Below are positions 2,413-64,000 of a DNA stretch of 64,000 nucleotides, in pieces. The notes beneath the pieces were generated by a model, which did no database searches, had not been told where the DNA came from, and was given only the letters and a program-made list of their open reading frames with translations. The number at the start of each line of letters is the position of its first letter. Positions within the stretch are counted from its first letter, which is position 1. The translations under genes and the position numbers were made by a program. This DNA comes from Anaerocolumna sedimenticola (lineage in GTDB: Bacteria; Bacillota; Clostridia; Lachnospirales; Lachnospiraceae). The DNA is taken from contig NZ_CP048000.1 of assembly GCF_009931695.1 (NCBI RefSeq), forward strand, positions 1,110,001 to 1,174,000, written 5' to 3'.

Positions 2413-3108
2413 TTAAAATAAAATCTTTCCCAAATTCATAATAAAGCTTAATAGTAAATTATTATTATAAATAGTACTTAAGAAAGTATTTTCATTTATC
2501 AGCTGAAAAACAACTTCTCCCCATTTTGTACTACTCAATATAGTTATAAAAATACATCCTATCCATATTACGATTATTCCTTGCAAAAGTCCTGCCAGTA
2601 ATCCGGCCGTCTTATTCAGACCGTTTATAAGGGGTAGTTTACTGATTATATCCAAGGTTTCACAAAGTAGTGCCAGTCCAATCGTTATAAAAAGTACTAC
2701 AAGGAGGAAAACGGCTGCATTTATAATAATTCTTGCTATGGAATTTATGATATAACCTTTAAAATTCTTTACTGCCATGGCAGTATAAACATCTTTTGTA
2801 TTATTTTCTATCAGAGTATGTTTCATTATCTTAGGAAGTGGAAGTTTATTAATGAAATTAACCTGATCGGGTTTTTTTTCACCCATGTCTTTAAACTCAA
2901 TCACCTTTGAAACTTTCTCGGTAACAAATCCCATAACTTTATCATTTTTCTGAAGTTCTTTACTAATAGCCGGGCTGACCCAACTTGTTACTATAAGTGC
3001 TATTATTGTTGAAAATAGAGTAAATACAGTCCGGATAAATCCTACTCGCCGCCCGTTTAATGCATACCCGGCTAAAACTACCAATACCAATATCACCAAC
3101 CAATTCAT
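2413..3108 (-). CDS. CvpA family membrane protein
   Basis: This is a 231-aa hydrophobic protein. The N-terminal pattern, two membrane segments followed by a Gly-Arg-Arg-x-Gly-Phe turn (residues 19-24), is characteristic of the CvpA/colicin V production family. About 70 polar residues follow, and then two or three more membrane helices in the C-terminal half. CvpA proteins are inner-membrane proteins linked to envelope homeostasis, but their biochemical role is not settled. An AGGAGG-like site (CAGGAGGATATC) precedes the start. It lies 80 bases downstream of the DUF5711 gene on the same strand and may share its transcript. Confidence 0.75.
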   Translation of the reverse strand: MNWLVILVLVVLAGYALNGRRVGFIRTVFTLFSTIIALIVTSWVSPAISKELQKNDKVMGFVTEKVSKVIEFKDMGEKKPDQVNFINKLPLPKIMKHTLIENNTKDVYTAMAVKNFKGYIINSIARIIINAAVFLLVVLFITIGLALLCETLDIISKLPLINGLNKTAGLLAGLLQGIIVIWIGCIFITILSSTKWGEVVFQLINENTFLSTIYNNNLLLSFIMNLGKILF

Positions 3109-3188
3109 GATATCCTCCTGTTTTATAGAGTTTTATTTATATTGTCAATTAAGGAATTTTCTTATGTAAAGGTGACCCAAAATAATTA

Positions 3189-4373
3189 TTATTTCTTAGC
3201 TTCACTTAGTTTTACTTCTTCTATATACTGATTATCGATAATTATGTAGCTATCAATATTATTGACCGGCAGAATATAGGAAATATCGCTGTCAAAGGTA
3301 TAATGGAATTTCTCCTCTCCGTCGTTATGTAAAATAGTCCATTCTAAATTGGAATAAAGAATGACTTCATCTCCGGATACATAGATATTGTCATAATTAT
3401 AATTAATAGCCTTATCAAGTATTACATTACCTTTTAAATCATATAGGAGAATAAGGTATTTATCTTCTTTATCACCATTATCCAATACAAATCCTACGTA
3501 TTTATCACTATGGAATATACTTTTGATTTCCGACTTAAAGGTTTCTTCATATACAACTTTTGGTGTCTGGTTCATGGAATACAGGCTAAATCGGTCATCG
3601 CCAAAGGTACATACTGTGTTATTATTGATAAATTCAATATTGGGTATAATTGTCTGTCCATAATCAAAACCACCTACCACATTATCAACATAGTTTTGAC
3701 CTACCCCGCCAAAATTATAAAAGGTAACTTTATTTTGTACTTTGCCGCTGCTTATGGATAAATAACTGGTAACCAGTTTTCTTCCGTCATTTGATAAGGA
3801 AAGGTCAATGGGGAATCCGTCTTTCTCATTAATCGTTCTGGTACTTACCAGTTCTTCCCCATCTTCACTGTAAATTTTTATGTAATTTACATCATCTCCA
3901 TCCATTAATACCGCAACCACTCCCTGATTGGCTATTTCACTTTTAATTATGGGATCTGGTACATTAATTGTGGTCATTCCCCCTTCTCCATTAAATACCT
4001 CCAGAGATTTATAACCCCGGTCGCTAATGACCACATATTTATCACAGACATCTGCAATGGGATCTTTCATTTCAAATGTACCATTCCAAAGGAGATTACC
4101 TGCTCCGTCCATAGCCATGGCCCCATCCCTGCTGTAACGGAGTACCCCTGTTCCATAGCTGTCATATTTAGCTGAACTGCTGTCACTCCTTTTCGTTTTA
4201 TGGATGACCTGGTAACTTGTATAATTTTTATGTAAAATTAAATTTGCTGCAAATATAATAAAACCGATACCAGCAATTACTGAGACTATCGTTATTATGG
4301 TTACTATTTGTTTATGTTTACGTTTTCTTAGTTCATAGCTTCTTAAATCCCGTTTTTCTAATTCTATCGCCAT
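3189..4373 (-). CDS. DUF5711-type membrane-anchored beta-propeller-like protein
   Basis: This 394-aa protein has a short basic cytoplasmic N-terminus (ELRKRKHKQ), one membrane helix at about residues 23-46, and a large predicted extracytoplasmic region. That region contains repeated beta-strand-rich units with hydrophobic/aromatic-Gly-Asp patterns, such as GYKSLEVFNGEGG and SLSNDGRKLV, as in WD/PQQ-like propellers. The overall plan matches proteins annotated DUF5711 in Clostridia, whose function is unknown. It starts with ATG preceded by GGAG. It is adjacent to cvpA and a LysM membrane protein, so an envelope role is plausible but unproven. Confidence 0.65.
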   Translation of the reverse strand: MAIELEKRDLRSYELRKRKHKQIVTIITIVSVIAGIGFIIFAANLILHKNYTSYQVIHKTKRSDSSSAKYDSYGTGVLRYSRDGAMAMDGAGNLLWNGTFEMKDPIADVCDKYVVISDRGYKSLEVFNGEGGMTTINVPDPIIKSEIANQGVVAVLMDGDDVNYIKIYSEDGEELVSTRTINEKDGFPIDLSLSNDGRKLVTSYLSISSGKVQNKVTFYNFGGVGQNYVDNVVGGFDYGQTIIPNIEFINNNTVCTFGDDRFSLYSMNQTPKVVYEETFKSEIKSIFHSDKYVGFVLDNGDKEDKYLILLYDLKGNVILDKAINYNYDNIYVSGDEVILYSNLEWTILHNDGEEKFHYTFDSDISYILPVNNIDSYIIIDNQYIEEVKLSEAKK

Positions 4374-4481
4374 GATTTCTCCTTTTTGCTTCCTTTTATC
4401 TTTATTAAACTCTTTTTGTACATGTATGTTAATTATACCTTATTTGCCTCATATTGACACTAACTTTTTTATATTTTTAAA

Positions 4482-4579
4482 CCAGAAGAAACACGCTTTG
4501 CGAATTTCTTCGGTTCACGTGTGCGTTCGAATTATTGCAAGCAAGCTTGCTAATTCTCACTTTGCTTTTGCGGAAATTA
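4482..4579 (-). repeat. Long copy (98 bp) of repeat family A
   Basis: By eye this aligns over 98 bp with 10641-10738, with about 12 mismatches. It contains an internal near-palindrome (GCAAGCAAGCTTGC) and a second inverted segment (GAAACACGCTTTGCGAATTTC). The core at 4557-4577 touches a terminator hairpin. A plus-strand reading frame over this stretch is not a gene. Confidence 0.75.
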
Positions 4580-4580
4580 G

Positions 4581-4629
4581 GAAAGCTGTCAACCTGAGCT
4601 TAGGTAACCAGGCTCAATTCGACAGCTTC
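4581..4629 (-). terminator. Terminator hairpin of the LysM gene
   Basis: AAGCTGTC at 4583-4590 pairs with GACAGCTT at 4621-4628, and TGAGC/GCTCA pair inside it. The T-tract on the minus strand is short (CTTTCCT), so efficiency is uncertain. Confidence 0.6.
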
Positions 4630-4698
4630 TAATATATTATGAAACAAACATATAAATAGGAAATACTACCTGATCCGTATTTTATGTCCTAACTAAGA

Positions 4699-6129
4699 CT
4701 AAGGTACGATTAATTTCTGACCCTCATAAATTTTATTTTCATCTTCTATTCCATTTAATTTTTTAATCTCATCCATGTAACTGAATGTATTATAAAGCTG
4801 ATGACTAATGGATGCAAGAGTATCTCCTGCGTGTACGATATAATATTTTACCGGAGCCGAAGTCTGTACGGTTTCATTATCGTCCTTATTAGAATTGGAA
4901 TTATCCGCTGCACTTGCAGAATTATCGTTCTGGTCATCGGCTTTTGCAGTATCCTTTTTATTACCTGTATTATCACTTTCGGAATTATCCCCGTTCGGAA
5001 TATTATCTCCATCCGCATCGTCCGCCGGCTTATTGTCATCCTCCTCTATGGTGTTTACATTACCCTCAATTGTTTCAACCGTTGTTTCCTGTCCGTTATC
5101 CGAGCCTTGTTCCTCTTCTGCATCAGATCCTTTACCTGGTTGATTGTCCACTATGTTCTTATCATTGTCACCGGTTTGGGAATCGGCATCGGCAACCTGG
5201 GAATTCTCTTTATTCCCATCTGCAACCTGGGTATTATCCCCGGTCTGCTCACCCGTCTCTGTATTTACTGCCTCATCTAAGGTATCACCGTCATTTTGAG
5301 CTATATTGAGACTTTTGGATATGGTATTGAGGGCTGTTTCCATACTCTTCATTTTATCATAATTATCTAACATAGTCGCGGCTATAACTAACACAATGAT
5401 TGCTAATAAAGTACTGGCAGCATACAGCAGCCGAATAATACTTCTATCATCTTTAATTTCTTTCTTTTCCTGAATTACATTGCGTATTTTTCTGGTGGTA
5501 TGATCGGTGTAATTTTTTTCTTCACTTACAGCCTCCTTATTTTCCACCATATAATTCTGCATTTCTTCATTTTTTTCATAATATATGTAATAGCCATTTA
5601 ATTTTACCAACTGATTATTTTCATTTACATAAAAAGCTTCTTCCTTCTCCATACTGTCCATCTTGAGGAAGACTTTATCTGATCCCGAGAAATTCTCCAT
5701 ATGAATTTTCCGAATTTTTTCTCCGCTTTCGATAAAAAATTCCGGACCTATCAGAGACCATCCTACAATTTCCACATCGCTGAAATATCTTTTTATATTT
5801 TCGTATATACTTGTCCAACCCTCGTCAGAAAAGGCAATTCCATTACCAAAGTCCGTATTCATCATTTCTATTGCACCTTTGATGAATATATTTTTGCTTT
5901 CTTCCGTTCTTATATAATATCCAAGTAAAACAGCAATTCTGCAGCCGGAATGTTCTTTATCTGATAATTGCTTTATATAAGTCATTACATAATCTTCTAC
6001 ATAAATCACCTTATTACGAGATCCCATACTTCCTACCTGTCTAACATTTTTAGGAATCTTAATGGGCATGGTGTTAACAGGCTCTGGCTGGTTATTTATA
6101 TTTCCGCCCTTACTGTTTAAGTTGTCCAT
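4699..6129 (-). CDS. Single-pass membrane protein: MPN-like cytoplasmic domain plus extracellular LysM
   Basis: The protein has 476 aa. The C-terminal 48 residues (about 429-476) form a clear LysM module (YIVHAGDTLASIS ... YEGQKLIVP), which binds peptidoglycan. A Glu/Asp/Asn-rich spacer of roughly 170 residues leads from one membrane helix at about 232-254. The N-terminal 200 residues are predicted cytoplasmic and resemble an MPN/JAB fold: VIYVEDYVMTYI, then RIAVLLGYY, then a strand ending VEIVGWS. The metalloprotease HxH...D residues are absent, so it would be catalytically dead. The ATG at 6129 is chosen because AGGAGGG lies eight bases upstream; a frame extension to 6150 has no such site. 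Function unknown; a link between cytoplasm and cell wall is inference. Confidence 0.72.
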   Translation of the reverse strand: MDNLNSKGGNINNQPEPVNTMPIKIPKNVRQVGSMGSRNKVIYVEDYVMTYIKQLSDKEHSGCRIAVLLGYYIRTEESKNIFIKGAIEMMNTDFGNGIAFSDEGWTSIYENIKRYFSDVEIVGWSLIGPEFFIESGEKIRKIHMENFSGSDKVFLKMDSMEKEEAFYVNENNQLVKLNGYYIYYEKNEEMQNYMVENKEAVSEEKNYTDHTTRKIRNVIQEKKEIKDDRSIIRLLYAASTLLAIIVLVIAATMLDNYDKMKSMETALNTISKSLNIAQNDGDTLDEAVNTETGEQTGDNTQVADGNKENSQVADADSQTGDNDKNIVDNQPGKGSDAEEEQGSDNGQETTVETIEGNVNTIEEDDNKPADDADGDNIPNGDNSESDNTGNKKDTAKADDQNDNSASAADNSNSNKDDNETVQTSAPVKYYIVHAGDTLASISHQLYNTFSYMDEIKKLNGIEDENKIYEGQKLIVP

Positions 6130-6150
6130 AACTTTTTCCCTCCTAACCAC

Positions 6151-6458
6151 AGTCTATTTTAGACAATGATATAAATATTACTGTTGTTAATCGTATCATA
6201 GCCGTCATAAATATTATGTCAAAAGAATAAAGCAAACCTAGATATCTTACTTATTTTATATTCTCTTATTCGCCTTTTATTTTCAGGTTCTGCAATTTTT
6301 TTGCTGTATTTAATATTACCGGATGAGATTTATTACTATTCTTGGTGGAATTTGGCTTTCAAAATATTGCTATAATCTGACTATTTTACTTTTTTAAGGT
6401 AATACTTTTGTTATTACAGAATATGGTTGTAGTGTACGAGTATTAATAGGAGGTTATA
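6151..6458. other. Intergenic region between divergent LysM and yyaC genes
   Basis: This AT-rich spacer of about 308 bases must carry both promoters. TGCTATAAT near 6368-6376 looks like an extended -10 toward yyaC. No other gene or strong structure is visible. Confidence 0.4.
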
Positions 6459-7028
6459 ATGAATAGAGAGTTAGAGGCTGAAAAGAAATTATATTATTTT
6501 AATACGAAAGATCGTTATTCTGTGTATGATTTTAGCAAGACTTTACAAGAATTGATACAGAAAAACATTTATAATAAAAAGCAAATAGTTTTCTTATGTA
6601 TTGGAACTGATAGGGCAACCGGCGACTGCCTTGGACCTATTGTTGGTTATAAATTATCAAAACTTCCTCATAATATCATATTATACGGAACATTGGAGCA
6701 GCCTGTGCATGCTAAAAATCTCGGAGAAACCATGAATTACATTTATGCACATCATCAAAATGCTTTTGTAATTGCAATAGATGCCTCTTTAGGCAAATCC
6801 GGCCATATCGGTTATATTACTCTGGGGGAGGGCCCTTTATTACCAGGTGCCGGAGTTGATAAAGCTCTACCGCCGGTGGGAGATATCTTTATCACAGGTA
6901 TTGTAAATTTTTCAGGAATGTTAGACCATATGCTGCTTCAGACTACACGGCTAAATGTAGTAATGATTTTAGCAGATTATATATGCACCGGTATTAATTA
7001 CTGCTTTTATAAATTAGCTGCGGATTGA
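6459..7028 (+). CDS. yyaC: Spore protease-like protein YyaC
   Basis: This 189-aa protein matches the YyaC (DUF1256) family, which is structurally related to the germination protease and hydrogenase maturation proteases. Visible family segments are FLCIGTDRATGDCLGP (about residues 48-63), GTLEQPVHAKNL, AIDASLG and PPVGDIFITGIVN. YyaC is a conserved sporulation-associated protein of uncertain substrate. The start has AGGAGG six bases upstream of the ATG. It is monocistronic, with a strong hairpin terminator directly behind it. Its presence supports a spore-forming host. Confidence 0.88.
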   Translation: MNRELEAEKKLYYFNTKDRYSVYDFSKTLQELIQKNIYNKKQIVFLCIGTDRATGDCLGPIVGYKLSKLPHNIILYGTLEQPVHAKNLGETMNYIYAHHQNAFVIAIDASLGKSGHIGYITLGEGPLLPGAGVDKALPPVGDIFITGIVNFSGMLDHMLLQTTRLNVVMILADYICTGINYCFYKLAAD

Positions 7029-7032
7029 GGAA

Positions 7033-7080
7033 AAGCCTGTGTAGGTTAAGTTTTAAATCTTACCTAGACAGGCTTATTTT
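7033..7080. terminator. Bidirectional terminator
   Basis: AAGCCTGT-TAGGTTAAG pairs with CTTACCTA-ACAGGCTT with a loop of about eight bases, followed by T-rich sequence on the plus strand. It serves yyaC and probably also the convergent minus-strand gene ending at 7080. Confidence 0.85.
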
Positions 7081-8177
7081 TAATAATTTCCCTCTTTATA
7101 ATAACCAAGCGCTTCCGAAATCGTTTTTAAATCATTCTCAATTATAATATCAGATAATATATTTAATTTGTCTACGGACATAAATTCTTTACCCAGATAG
7201 GCTTCATATTTATTAGCTATTTCCATGGATAACACTTTAATCTTTTCTTCCGTATCTTTTATTTTAACATATACTTCACCATATTCTTTCTTCAAAGAAT
7301 TTAATTCTTCCTGACTTCTGGCTCTAATTTCATCTCCGATAACCAAACGGGTATTATTTTCAAAGGTATTCAGAGCTTCTTTCTTTTGCTCCATTATTGA
7401 TTTCAACTCATAATCCAGTTCGGATAATTCCTGGTTAAAATTATCCAGTCCATATTGGCTTTCATCCTTATCCTTTAAAATTCTCTTTCTGATTTTCTCT
7501 CTTTTTTTCTTATTTTCACCGATTTGTAAACGTATATTATAAATCCGTTTAATCGTCTGCATATGCTTATCTTTGACATTATTATCAATAAGCATATAGG
7601 AGCCGCCGAAAAATATTACGGTAATAAAATAAATTAAAATCAAATAAATCATTTTTTCATCCGGAATTACATAAAAGTAAAAGAAACAGGGAATGATCAG
7701 CAGAATTATAATTAAGGACAGTAAGATGATTGCCATATCCCCCATACCTGTTGGAAGAAATAAAGCATAAAATAACTTGGTATTACAAAAAGCAGGCACT
7801 TTCTTTTGCTTTAGTATGGCTTTCGTTTCTAATACCATCTGCCTGTACTCTTCTTTAAGCTGAGACGTCTCTGTTTCAATACGTTCAGAGATTTTCGCAC
7901 TTTTTGATTTTTCTTTTTTATTACGGATTTTTTTCGCTCTTAAACGTGTTTTTTCAAGCTGATCGTCGTAAGTCGCTTCAATTTCATCTTTTCGTTTTTT
8001 TGTAGTACTTGCAATTTCTTCAGTTATTGCTTTTTCTTTATTTTTAATGGTTTTTTCCAAACGGGATTCTTCCGATGCCAAGGCATCATTACTATCCATG
8101 TAATCATTTAACTCGGACAATATGTCCTTTAATCTGTTTACATCATCTAATCCACCGGATAATATATTACTTTCCAT
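7080..8177 (-). CDS. Coiled-coil membrane protein of unknown function
   Basis: I do not recognise this 365-aa protein. It has a Lys/Glu-rich coiled-coil arm (about residues 20-120), two hydrophobic helices separated by a short loop (about 148-205), and a second long coiled-coil arm to residue 330. The helical hairpin would place both arms in the cytoplasm. The start is supported by a GGAGG-like site before the ATG. It faces yyaC convergently and appears to be a single-gene unit. A scaffold or trafficking role is only a guess from its shape. Confidence 0.6.
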   Translation of the reverse strand: MESNILSGGLDDVNRLKDILSELNDYMDSNDALASEESRLEKTIKNKEKAITEEIASTTKKRKDEIEATYDDQLEKTRLRAKKIRNKKEKSKSAKISERIETETSQLKEEYRQMVLETKAILKQKKVPAFCNTKLFYALFLPTGMGDMAIILLSLIIILLIIPCFFYFYVIPDEKMIYLILIYFITVIFFGGSYMLIDNNVKDKHMQTIKRIYNIRLQIGENKKKREKIRKRILKDKDESQYGLDNFNQELSELDYELKSIMEQKKEALNTFENNTRLVIGDEIRARSQEELNSLKKEYGEVYVKIKDTEEKIKVLSMEIANKYEAYLGKEFMSVDKLNILSDIIIENDLKTISEALGYYKEGNY

Positions 8178-61280: not shown

Positions 61281-61325
61281 AAAACACCCTGGACCAAACA
61301 GAATCTGGTTGGTCCAGGGTGTTTT
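61281..61325 (-). terminator. Terminator of the agrBD unit
   Basis: AAAACACCCTGGACCAA pairs exactly with TTGGTCCAGGGTGTTTT around ten bases, followed by T on the minus strand. It lies 44 bases past the agrD stop. Confidence 0.93.
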
Positions 61326-61368: not shown

Positions 61369-61518
61369 CTATGCATTCTTCTTATTTCTGACTTCGGAAA
61401 CTGCTTTTGGTTCTTTGGCTTGATATACACCATACTGAGATGCAGTTCCCCCTGCGTTCATAGCACTTTTGTAACCTAATCTGGCAATAGCTCTTAATAG
61501 GTAACTTTTAACCTTCAT
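61369..61518 (-). CDS. agrD: Cysteine-free AgrD-like autoinducer precursor (49 aa)
   Basis: This short gene starts at the ATG next to the agrB stop, with AAAGGAGC upstream. The N-terminus MKVKSYLLRAIARLGYKSAM is an amphipathic leader. Then comes NAGGTASQYGVYQ and an acidic-basic tail beginning AKEPKA, the AgrD C-terminal recognition motif (usually PKEPxxL). The core has no cysteine; serine S27 in ASQYGVY is the likely ring residue. The cleavage points are uncertain, so the ring could contain five or six residues. The terminator lies right after it. The assignment rests on position, size and tail. Confidence 0.8.
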   Translation of the reverse strand: MKVKSYLLRAIARLGYKSAMNAGGTASQYGVYQAKEPKAVSEVRNKKNA

Positions 61519-62097
61519 TTAATACAGCTCCTTTCTTTTATTTACCTCAATTAACATTAACATGGCAACAAAAACCAATGTAAACGTTAATGTAGCAGCA
61601 TATTCTCTTGCTATAAAATATAATGCAACGACAAATGCCGTCCAGCATAAACTGATTACGATGCTGATTTTCCTGTACTTAAGTTTATCCAATTCCAATA
61701 ACGGTTTATTGCTATTTTCAATTGGTGCATATTCAAATATGCATCCTATGTAAATAGCTATAAATACAAGTAAATAGACCAGTGATATTGTAGGAAGTAG
61801 TAATCTGGACATAAACATTGTTACTAAAAAAATGGAAGCAAATGCAATATGGCATTTTAAATAAGTACTTGCATGATAGCCGCCAGAATACGATCTGGTT
61901 ACTACAAAAGCTATATAAAACAGCATCGCATGATAAAAAAGATTCAGCAAATAGCCTAAAACTACCACGATGGTAAAATTTATTAAGTTAGAAAGAAAAA
62001 TTTCAAATCCGTATATATAAATGTCCTTATCTTTATTCCGAATTGTATTATTTTTGCATAAAAAATCAGCTATCTTCACAGCAACTCGATTGGCCAA
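61519..62097 (-). CDS. agrB: AgrB autoinducer-processing membrane protease
   Basis: This 192-aa protein has six hydrophobic segments. The catalytic pair is visible: H75 in GGYHAS and C82 in YLKCHIAF. AgrB removes the AgrD C-terminus and closes the ring to make the autoinducing peptide. The start is a TTG at 62097 (MANRVAVKIADF) with AGGAGG seven bases upstream. It abuts agrD. A promoter with LytTR-like operator precedes it. Confidence 0.93.
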   Translation of the reverse strand: MANRVAVKIADFLCKNNTIRNKDKDIYIYGFEIFLSNLINFTIVVVLGYLLNLFYHAMLFYIAFVVTRSYSGGYHASTYLKCHIAFASIFLVTMFMSRLLLPTISLVYLLVFIAIYIGCIFEYAPIENSNKPLLELDKLKYRKISIVISLCWTAFVVALYFIAREYAATLTFTLVFVAMLMLIEVNKRKELY

Positions 62098-62148
62098 AAT
62101 ACCCCCTCCTAATGCATCAGCATTATTGATTGCCCTAAGTTCACTTTG

Positions 62149-62177
62149 ATGATAACTGATTCTAACTCTATTTTCAA
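62149..62177 (-). promoter_or_regulatory. agrBD promoter
   Basis: On the minus strand -35 TTGAAA (62177-62172) and -10 TATCAT (62154-62149) are separated by 17 bases. Both are one base off consensus. The start point would be near 62142, about 45 bases before agrB. Confidence 0.6.
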
Positions 62178-62186
62178 TAGCCCGTA

Positions 62187-62217
62187 CACGTTTGGTTAAG
62201 TATCAAGCACGTTTGGT
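62187..62217. promoter_or_regulatory. LytTR-type operator: two direct repeats
   Basis: CACGTTTGGT occurs twice (62187-62196 and 62208-62217), with starts 21 bp apart. This is the two-helical-turn spacing known for AgrA-type LytTR sites. It lies nine bases upstream of the agrBD -35 box. Confidence 0.65.
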
Positions 62218-62253
62218 ATAACTATGTATCCGGTTTCAATTAAGGATTCATTT

Positions 62254-63552
62254 TTAGCCAGACGTCAGCATAAAAATACCGTTCTTTTCATAGAAACTTA
62301 TCATACCATTATGTTTATTTACTATATCTTTAATACTTAAGCTACCCACACCATGCTGCAATTTATCTTTTTTCGTAGTACGCAGATGAGGGTTTTTATC
62401 CAGTACCGACTCTGCTATGTAATTATTAATTAGAATAACAAGATAATTACGTTCATTGTATATTTTTAAATTTATTTCCCTGTTATTTTTAATTCTGTTA
62501 CTCGCCTCTATGGCATTATCAAACAGATTTGCAAGTAAGATGCTAAGATCCAGCTCCGGTATTTTTTCAACACTGCCGGTTATTTCGTAATGGAATATAA
62601 TGTTGTGTCTTTGGCATAATGAGGCTTTGGAACTGATTACCGCATTTATGGCATCACTTATCGTAAGAACAAGCTGAGTTCCAAAAGTTATTTTATTTTC
62701 TAATAAGGTGCTTAAATAAGTTTTCGCTTCCGTGTCTTTTCCGTTATGGAGAAGCGTGGCAGCACATTCCACATAGTTTTTCATATCATGGCGGATCTTT
62801 CGGATTTCTTCGTAGGATTGTTTCATCTCAACCAGATTTTTTTCTTGTTCTTTCAGACGTAATTCCATTAAGGAGTATTGAAGCCGTTCTTTATTTTTGG
62901 CACTTATATTTACAAAAATGTAATAACATAAAACATTTATCAAGATTAAACTGATCATGATTAATACGGCAAAGAAGCCGTTTTGCCTGGTATTCGGGCT
63001 GGTGATCAGAATTTCAAAAACCAGTACTCCTGCTGCAAAAGACGTAATAAATACGCTTAAAATCGCAATCCATTCCATAATAGATAGTGCAAATTTGTTA
63101 TTCCTCTGCAGTCTTAATATCATTCGTGTCAGAAAGAAATAGCTGGATTGAGCCATAGCCAGAACAATAAACCGCTCAATTCCCTGCTGGGTAATGAGGT
63201 TTGTCACTTCATATGGGGAAATATAACTTATCAAAGTTAAAACAGATATTCCGGTTATCATTTTCAGTCCGTTATCTATGCAGGCAATAATTATTTTTTC
63301 AAATATGGAACCATTTAAAAAGAAAATTCCGTATATCACTACAATTCCCGGATAAATAAGACCTGCTACCCCCTCAAATATAGTAATCTTATTCATAATT
63401 AATGTTGCTGTAACCTGTGCTATAAAAGCCGTTATAAAACCTATATATTTCTTATAGCTGTCATTCTTAAAACCTAAATACCTGGTAACAAACTCCGTTG
63501 AAACGAAACATTGGATTAGTGTTGCAGAGTATTCTATTACTGTCCATATCAT
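62254..63552 (-). CDS. agrC: AgrC-like sensor histidine kinase
   Basis: This 432-aa protein has six to seven hydrophobic segments in residues 1-215 (the peptide-sensing part). The cytoplasmic GHKL kinase includes RKIRHDMKNY with phospho-H255, and an N box (LLANLFDNAIEAS) in the HATPase. This matches HPK10-type kinases. It ends 155 bases before agrB, with the promoter between. It starts three bases after the response regulator stop, so the two are cotranscribed. The C-terminus (EKNGIFMLTSG) is slightly short but acceptable. Confidence 0.9.
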   Translation of the reverse strand: MIWTVIEYSATLIQCFVSTEFVTRYLGFKNDSYKKYIGFITAFIAQVTATLIMNKITIFEGVAGLIYPGIVVIYGIFFLNGSIFEKIIIACIDNGLKMITGISVLTLISYISPYEVTNLITQQGIERFIVLAMAQSSYFFLTRMILRLQRNNKFALSIMEWIAILSVFITSFAAGVLVFEILITSPNTRQNGFFAVLIMISLILINVLCYYIFVNISAKNKERLQYSLMELRLKEQEKNLVEMKQSYEEIRKIRHDMKNYVECAATLLHNGKDTEAKTYLSTLLENKITFGTQLVLTISDAINAVISSKASLCQRHNIIFHYEITGSVEKIPELDLSILLANLFDNAIEASNRIKNNREINLKIYNERNYLVILINNYIAESVLDKNPHLRTTKKDKLQHGVGSLSIKDIVNKHNGMISFYEKNGIFMLTSG

Positions 63553-63555
63553 CTT

Positions 63556-64000
63556 TTAAGTACCTCTCGTAAATAATTGCAGCTTTTGTTTGACCGTTTC
63601 TATGCGGTAACGGCTTAATGGGACCATATCTTTATTGTTTAAAATCACCTTTGTTTTATCTATGGAATAAATATATCGGTAATTTACAAGAAAACCACTG
63701 TGAACCCGGATAAAACCGTAAACTTCAAATTCTTTCTCCATTTTATGAAGATTACTTTTAATGCGGTGCTTTTCGTCCTCCGTATAAAGAAAGATATCAT
63801 GCTTATAACTTTCAATGTACATAATATCGGTTATCCGAATCTGCATGGTAGAATTATTGAAACTTACCGTATAATATTGGTTATCATCTTTGATTTTTTT
63901 AATTATTGCTTCCGTTGCTTCAGGCAACTCTTCTTTCAGCCAATGCTTTCTTATAAAACGGAAAGGCCTGTAACGGATAGATTGAAATACAAGATCATCT
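63556..64000 (-). CDS. LytTR response regulator, AgrA-like (partial at window edge)
   Basis: The C-terminal 123 residues visible as a complete frame are a LytTR DNA-binding domain (MQIRITDIMYIESYKHDIFL, FIRVHSGFLVNYRYI). The same frame continues upstream to the window edge and reads VFQSIRYRPFRFIRKHWL, typical of the end of a receiver domain. So the gene is cut by the window, not short. It would bind the direct repeats before agrB. It is cotranscribed with the kinase downstream. Confidence 0.9.
   Translation of the reverse strand, partial: DDLVFQSIRYRPFRFIRKHWLKEELPEATEAIIKKIKDDNQYYTVSFNNSTMQIRITDIMYIESYKHDIFLYTEDEKHRIKSNLHKMEKEFEVYGFIRVHSGFLVNYRYIYSIDKTKVILNNKDMVPLSRYRIETVKQKLQLFTRGT

Follow-up and report, generated by a model that had tools for sequence, protein, structure and literature searches.

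A complete agr locus with a cysteine-free signal precursor

We analyzed a 64-kb stretch of the Anaerocolumna sedimenticola chromosome (NZ_CP048000.1, positions 1,110,001 to 1,174,000, hereafter the window), whose right end carries an agr quorum-sensing locus on the minus strand in the order agrA (cut by the window edge), agrC, agrB, agrD. The agrB gene (61519..62097, minus strand, as are all features of the locus given below) encodes a membrane peptidase/cyclase of 192 residues with a TTG start; it matches Pfam PF04647 (7.3e-41) and carries the catalytic residues H75 and C82, whose columns were invariant in an alignment of 110 AgrBs. Adjoining it on the same strand is agrD (61369..61518), which encodes a 49-residue signal precursor without cysteine and is preceded by a ribosome-binding-site-like AAAGGAG (61528..61534) that was found in all six orthologues compared. 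The locus contains both a sensor kinase and a LytTR regulator and thus forms a complete agr system: agrC (62254..63552) encodes a membrane kinase of 432 residues with a GHKL ATPase domain (PF14501, 9.7e-21), and agrA (63556..64000) a LytTR response regulator (PF04397, 1.7e-18). The LytTR open reading frame (ORF) in the window is the 3' part of a full-length AgrA of 236 residues, which is complete in the genome and extends beyond the window edge to about 64266 (L003 8557-9267). These findings bore out the sequence-only reading of the window, which had named an AgrB with H75 and C82, a neighboring cysteine-free AgrD of 49 residues, an AgrC-type kinase and a LytTR regulator.

Behind agrD lies a probable terminator (61281..61325), a 17-bp perfect inverted repeat with flanking A/T runs; its arms were checked directly, and the hairpin scan scored only a shorter piece, on the plus strand. 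A PDB sequence search with AgrB returned four chance-level matches (E about 1), none of them related.

agrD is a conserved gene with serine at the ring position

The AgrD precursor (MKVKSYLLRAIARLGYKSAMNAGGTASQYGVYQAKEPKAVSEVRNKKNA) has no cysteine among its 49 residues and so lacks what a thiolactone calls for, a cysteine in the mature peptide. With 19.5 bits against a cut-off of 19.0, it narrowly passed the NCBIfam model TIGR04223, 'AgrD family cyclic lactone autoinducer peptide', and eight of nine other Ser-ring AgrDs tried also exceeded that cut-off. Fourteen homologues were present in the protein collection, three of them named 'cyclic lactone autoinducer peptide' by JGI, which does not agree with the earlier remark that the peptide was too short for ordinary gene finding. 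Compared with five orthologues, agrD showed a ratio of nonsynonymous to synonymous substitution rates (dN/dS) of 0.08-0.18, a rough estimate with dS above 1 in three of them, and changes at codon positions 1, 2 and 3 numbered 41, 38 and 110, placing 110 of 189 at the third position. By these substitution patterns, agrD is coding and under purifying selection.

All 14 database homologues have Ser27, as do all 9 loci of the same genus (the window's included), in each of which agrD adjoins agrB on the same strand. The small ORF is thus conserved in relatives, and none of the nine same-genus loci has a cysteine in the ring region. Y29 and G30 were also invariant in the 14 homologues, and the nine loci share the ring pattern S-x-Y-G-[V/T/I]; positions 2 and 5 of the ring vary and may set signal groups apart. 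In most AgrB-adjacent AgrDs the ring residue stands ten residues before a conserved proline, with some one residue earlier or later, and S27 lies about ten residues upstream of the tail proline P37. Alignment with the AgrD of a second agr locus in the same genome (NSA[CVFFG]YQPKLP, against TA[SQYGV]YQAKEP here) puts the ring cysteine opposite Ser27.

Together, these data suggest that the likely AgrD product is a Ser27-Val31 lactone, SQYGV, encoded at 61426..61440. The serine lactone proposed in the sequence-only reading is therefore well supported, since Ser27 is invariant, sits at the place of the ring cysteine and matches the AgrD layout of Clostridium (Acetivibrio) thermocellum, Ser25-Phe29/Tyr30/Pro35 (PMC5322536). 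Its 'Tyr-rich core' did not survive, as the predicted ring holds one tyrosine (Y29) and Y32 lies outside it, in the part predicted to be cut off. The computed mass-to-charge ratio of the lactone, as [M+H]+, is 535.251 for SQYGV itself and 606.288, 707.336, 764.357 and 821.379 with the exotails A, TA, GTA and GGTA, respectively.

A predicted feedback promoter precedes agrB

LytTR regulators typically bind two direct repeats about 21 bases apart. The gap between agrC and agrB contains such a LytTR-type repeat, ACCAAACGTG-N11-ACCAAACGTG (62187..62217), seven bases upstream of TATTGAAA, and its 21-base spacing is kept in orthologues. The predicted agrBD promoter (62149..62177), in which TATCAT stands 17 bases past TTGAAA, is conserved in orthologues as well and scored highest (10 of 12 positions) among the promoter-like matches of the stretch, in a scan that overall returned 8 sites against 15.2 in shuffled sequence.

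We searched this genome (G000) and 14 others of the genus (G001-G014) for the composite of repeat and -35 element, allowing up to three mismatches, and obtained 12 sites. Nine of these lie at agrB, one in each of the nine genomes with this agrB; one lies behind agrC in G004, and G003 and G005 each have a further one upstream of alaS. The composite was present in all 10 genomes with an AgrC orthologue (10 of the 15, own genome included), and none was found in the five genomes without one or with the reversed pattern in any of the 15. Because the pattern was drawn from orthologues, a match at agrB is to some extent expected, and it is the lack of matches elsewhere that carries information. The repeat lacks specificity by itself: searched with one mismatch and no -35 element, it also turned up in G009 and G013 (one site each) and at additional positions in G002, G005 and G010; in the genome of this locus, the agrB site is the only repeat match at zero or one mismatch. 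A conserved LytTR-type repeat and promoter upstream of agrB point to autoinduction, in which AgrA probably turns on agrBD through the promoter of these two genes. Four further sites in this genome, three with two mismatches and one with three, were considered as a second AgrA target and dropped; the composite search did not return them, and the three-mismatch site lies within a coding frame.

The composites upstream of alaS, which encodes an alanyl-tRNA synthetase, precede a 94-nt element 5' of that gene in G003 (L095 about 2900-3130) and G005 (L096 about 4070-4250). The two copies are 95% identical and the element seems to own a promoter; the G003 copy has a folding z of -5.2 and is followed by a hairpin. 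By analogy with RNAIII of staphylococci, the element could possibly be an AgrA-driven small RNA. It matched no Rfam family at gathering score, and in the 13 other genomes of the genus matches were at most 26 bases long at E 0.01 or weaker, or there were none. Given only such very short matches, we rejected the element as a part of the agr locus studied here.

The locus occupies a shared chromosomal slot

The agrACBD genes lie between an M18 aminopeptidase gene and a DUF6240/FliK gene, a slot common to G000, G007, G001, G010 and G008. In G009, G011, G012 and G014 the slot is empty, with the flanking genes roughly 0.5-0.9 kb apart, and none of the four Agr proteins had a match in the slot stretch examined. 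The comparison left out G013, which has no M18 gene in the stretch, and, for both flanks, G002, G003, G005 and G006. Two named isolates, Anaerocolumna sp. MB42-C2 and AGMB13025, carry this agrB; in the MB42-C2 locus (L035) the ring sequence is SQYGT.

Two genomes depart from the common arrangement. In G004 (L094, G004:C73:20000-32000, 3425-7164) the slot holds agrA, agrC and the composite promoter; agrB and agrD are gone, and a PGA_cap capsule-synthesis gene stands in their place on the opposite strand. The three other AgrBs of this genome are not orthologues, with a best E of 1.3e-16 against 2.8e-62 or better for orthologues. G004 therefore looks like a possible receiver without a sender, although a gap elsewhere in the assembly, which is 91% complete, is also possible. 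In G007 (L242 8402-9706) a transposase-like ORF with an HTH_38 domain (8.4e-9), presumably IS30-like, lies between agrC and the repeat; the repeat, promoter and agrBD are intact behind it, which we count in favor of the pathway proposed below.

A second AgrC relative with 36% identity was seen in G002 (L066, G002:C37:88800-92400), beside an agrB interrupted by several stops. A Ser-ring AgrD [SLYLM] stands beside this broken agrB.

The ring residue has probably changed repeatedly in Clostridia

We surveyed AgrB genes paired with adjacent AgrD ORFs. In a sample of relatives (64 AgrB matches), the ring residue was cysteine in 26, serine in 22 and ambiguous in 2, and the AgrD was not found in 14; this locus and its orthologues account for 9 of the 22 serines. 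A class-wide Clostridia sample, which took in 97 of the 99 non-own matches, gave 37 cysteines, 22 serines, 2 threonines, one ambiguous and one unclear case, and 34 loci in which the AgrD was not found, so that serine or threonine was the ring residue in 24 of 63 AgrDs. Two later samples, made up almost wholly of the strongest Pfam AgrB matches of new genomes, had serine in 7 of 64 AgrDs (87 loci) and 1 of 16 (26 loci), together 8 of 80. The Ser/Thr fraction thus depends strongly on sampling, and the rarity of serine lactones implied by the sequence-only reading is not supported by the class-wide count, though serine was much less frequent in the later samples. Most Ser/Thr AgrDs of the first two samples (32 of 45) have no cysteine anywhere in the peptide. 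For the ring labels, 18 loci were re-read by hand against the automatic rule; L232, L233 and L237 were hand-labelled, L029, L091 and L157 are the ambiguous cases and L187 the unclear one. Among the matches listed in a literature search, no title or abstract start gives a census of Ser versus Cys AgrDs, and 'Anaerocolumna' is absent from the 20 papers listed out of 52 matches; most subscription papers lay outside this search.

Several loci of the survey were unusual. L189 2217-2357 and L202 1313-1435 (in G131 and G108) have threonine at the ring position ([TNTIS] and [TNGIG]) and no cysteine, and their peptides are possible Thr lactones. L237 236-607 (G123:C5) fuses the N-terminal part of an AgrB in one open frame to an AgrD-like C-terminal part. 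Viral contigs yielded six AgrB loci with one usable AgrB-AgrD pair (L324, Ser).

On a tree of 110 AgrBs, built by a quick method with 47 of 107 inner branches weakly supported and without L066 (broken AgrB), the Cys versus Ser/Thr label needs 11 changes, compared with an average of 36 for shuffled labels (Cys group). Well-supported branches alone force 8 changes (Cys group) or 6 (Ser group), and the label switches conspicuously in two pairs of close sisters, L165 (Ser) with L192 (Cys) and L179 (Ser) with L190 (Cys). The distribution on the tree is evidence that the ring residue switched repeatedly between cysteine and serine.

AgrB residue 79, which lies between the catalytic histidine and cysteine, is tyrosine at this locus (window 61861-61863). 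In the discovery set, Tyr79 (HxxxYxxC) was found in AgrBs paired with 30 of 43 Ser, 0 of 2 Thr and 4 of 62 Cys AgrDs, and in 27 of 36 Ser and 5 of 64 Cys under one automatic labelling rule. Across seven phylogenetically independent pairs the association was not significant (on average 1.9 the same way and 0.4 the other way). A first hold-out of 87 loci, 64 with an AgrD and 62 used (L325 and L329 excluded), gave 1 of 7 Ser against 3 of 55 Cys (p=0.39); its AgrD labels were assigned by hand ahead of any look at the AgrB loops, and their counts equal those of the automatic rule. A second (26 loci, 16 with an AgrD) gave 0 of 1 Ser and 0 of 15 Cys. Tyr79 as an AgrB signature of Ser rings was not replicated in these two hold-outs, both of which contain few Ser rows and consist almost entirely of the strongest Pfam matches of new genomes. 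We regard it as rather unlikely that the clostridial ring atom is an evolvable switch, with AgrB lineages having gone from Cys thiolactone to Ser (even Thr) lactone or back at least 6-8 times, so that one genome could run chemically separate signal channels, and with AgrB loop position 79 helping to set the choice.

Proposed pathway and alternatives

In our reading, which we consider likely, the cysteine-free AgrD of this complete agr locus is cut after Val31 and closed by AgrB to a five-residue Ser27-Val31 lactone that would activate AgrC and AgrA. Attack of AgrB Cys82 on the Val31-Tyr32 bond would set YQAKEP... free and form an acyl-enzyme, and the hydroxyl of Ser27, in place of the usual cysteine thiol, would accept the acyl group to give the lactone. 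Trimming of the leader would then leave the ring bare or with a short tail such as A, TA or GGTA, and the peptide would be exported. It would bind the membrane half of AgrC, which would phosphorylate AgrA, and AgrA would bind ACCAAACGTG-N11-ACCAAACGTG upstream of TATTGAAA and activate agrBD, so that the signal genes would be under positive feedback; agrAC presumably has another promoter.

Several points weigh against this pathway. The TIGR04223 score of AgrD is marginal. The lactone, the leader cut and the tail length of this AgrD are predicted features, and AgrA binding is predicted from motif shape and conservation, while G009 and G013, in which the repeat occurs without a -35 element, both lack an AgrC orthologue. 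The C-terminal residues of AgrC (window 62254-62290) are unlike those of its nine orthologues, as if by a 3' frame change; relatives hold longer copies, and the differing end could be a sequencing error. Finally, exotail-free peptides can rearrange (PMC11297923), and what persists could then be a head-to-tail cyclic peptide.

This last point leads to an alternative in which the Ser lactone is only transient and, being exotail-free, undergoes an O-to-N acyl shift, leaving cyclo(SQYGV) as the real signal. Such a rearrangement has been published for exotail-free autoinducing peptides (AIPs), and a lactone analogue of the exotail-free Listeria AIP underwent it in vitro (PMC11297923); the same paper cites a work whose title speaks of 'autoinducing cyclopeptides in clostridia', and in C. 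thermocellum the AgrD leader is predicted to be cut immediately ahead of the ring serine (PMC5322536). Ring chemistry bears on stability here, because exotail-free thiolactones are described as rapidly rearranging, whereas the lactone analogue was slow, with 48% O-to-N shifted and 36% hydrolysed in 22 h at pH 7.0 (PMC11297923). One kept exotail residue would moreover be expected to block the shift. We regard cyclo(SQYGV) as rather unlikely to be the real signal.

The altered end of the window's AgrC and the loss of agrBD from the same slot in G004 could instead be read as signs of a decaying agr relic, whose AgrD lost its cysteine and yields a linear peptide or nothing. A relic would not be expected to show purifying selection on agrD, an invariant S27, intact AgrB catalytic residues and a conserved promoter and repeat, and Ser-ring AgrDs occur in other Clostridia lineages; we consider decay very improbable. 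It is also very improbable that the ring is closed by Thr25, Ser18 or the Tyr29 phenol. All three are invariant in the 14 database homologues, but among the same-genus loci Ala replaces Thr25 in L007, L008, L012 and L013, and Ser18 gives way to Met in L011 and to Ala in L012. S27 alone occupies the place of the ring cysteine, and Tyr29 would close a three-residue ring, for which we know of no precedent.

Comparison with known systems

The agr system is usually described as a cysteine system, and thiolactone-trapping methods would probably fail to detect a signal such as the Ser27-Val31 lactone proposed here. Ser-lactone chemistry itself is already established, and this locus adds one more case to it. 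What it adds is the four-gene context, a predicted feedback promoter, a coexisting Cys-type locus and evidence of repeated ring-residue switching. Between them, the Ser locus, its Cys sister locus in one cell and the empty or receiver-only slots of relatives offer a natural series in which to study the reasons for using a lactone and the way AgrB copes with a weaker nucleophile.

The closest parallel in peptide layout is C. thermocellum Clo1313_2818, whose Ser25-Phe29 lactone was confirmed by liquid chromatography-tandem mass spectrometry with a synthetic standard (PMC5322536). Both precursors have a serine at ten residues before the conserved proline, a five-residue ring and a tyrosine right after the ring; in contrast to the complete locus with predicted feedback promoter described here, no agr operon or cognate AgrB, AgrC or AgrA was identified there. 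Clostridioides difficile Agr2, given as NSA[SSWVA] in Table 1 of PMC12312760, likewise belongs to Clostridia and has all four agr genes and a serine at the ring position, but its ring sequence is unrelated to SQYGV. Its gene order is called opposite to that of Staphylococcus aureus (PMC8534292), which would put the regulator genes first as in the agrA-agrC-agrB-agrD order of this locus; the table of PMC12312760 disagrees, writing agrB2D2C2A2.

Outside Clostridia, the Staphylococcus pseudintermedius AIP, RIPT[STGFF], is also a serine lactone with a five-residue ring (PMC12312760, PMC3673130), but from the class Bacilli, with the order agrBDCA and a different ring. GBAP of the Enterococcus faecalis Fsr system is a serine lactone as well (PMC12312760); it differs in its nine-residue ring and in having fsrD inside the fsrB sequence (PMC3673130). 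Nearest at hand is the second agr locus of the same genome (G000 4121365-4121874), which shares the AgrB family and the peptide layout up to YQxKxP and differs in its Cys ring [CVFFG], a predicted thiolactone.

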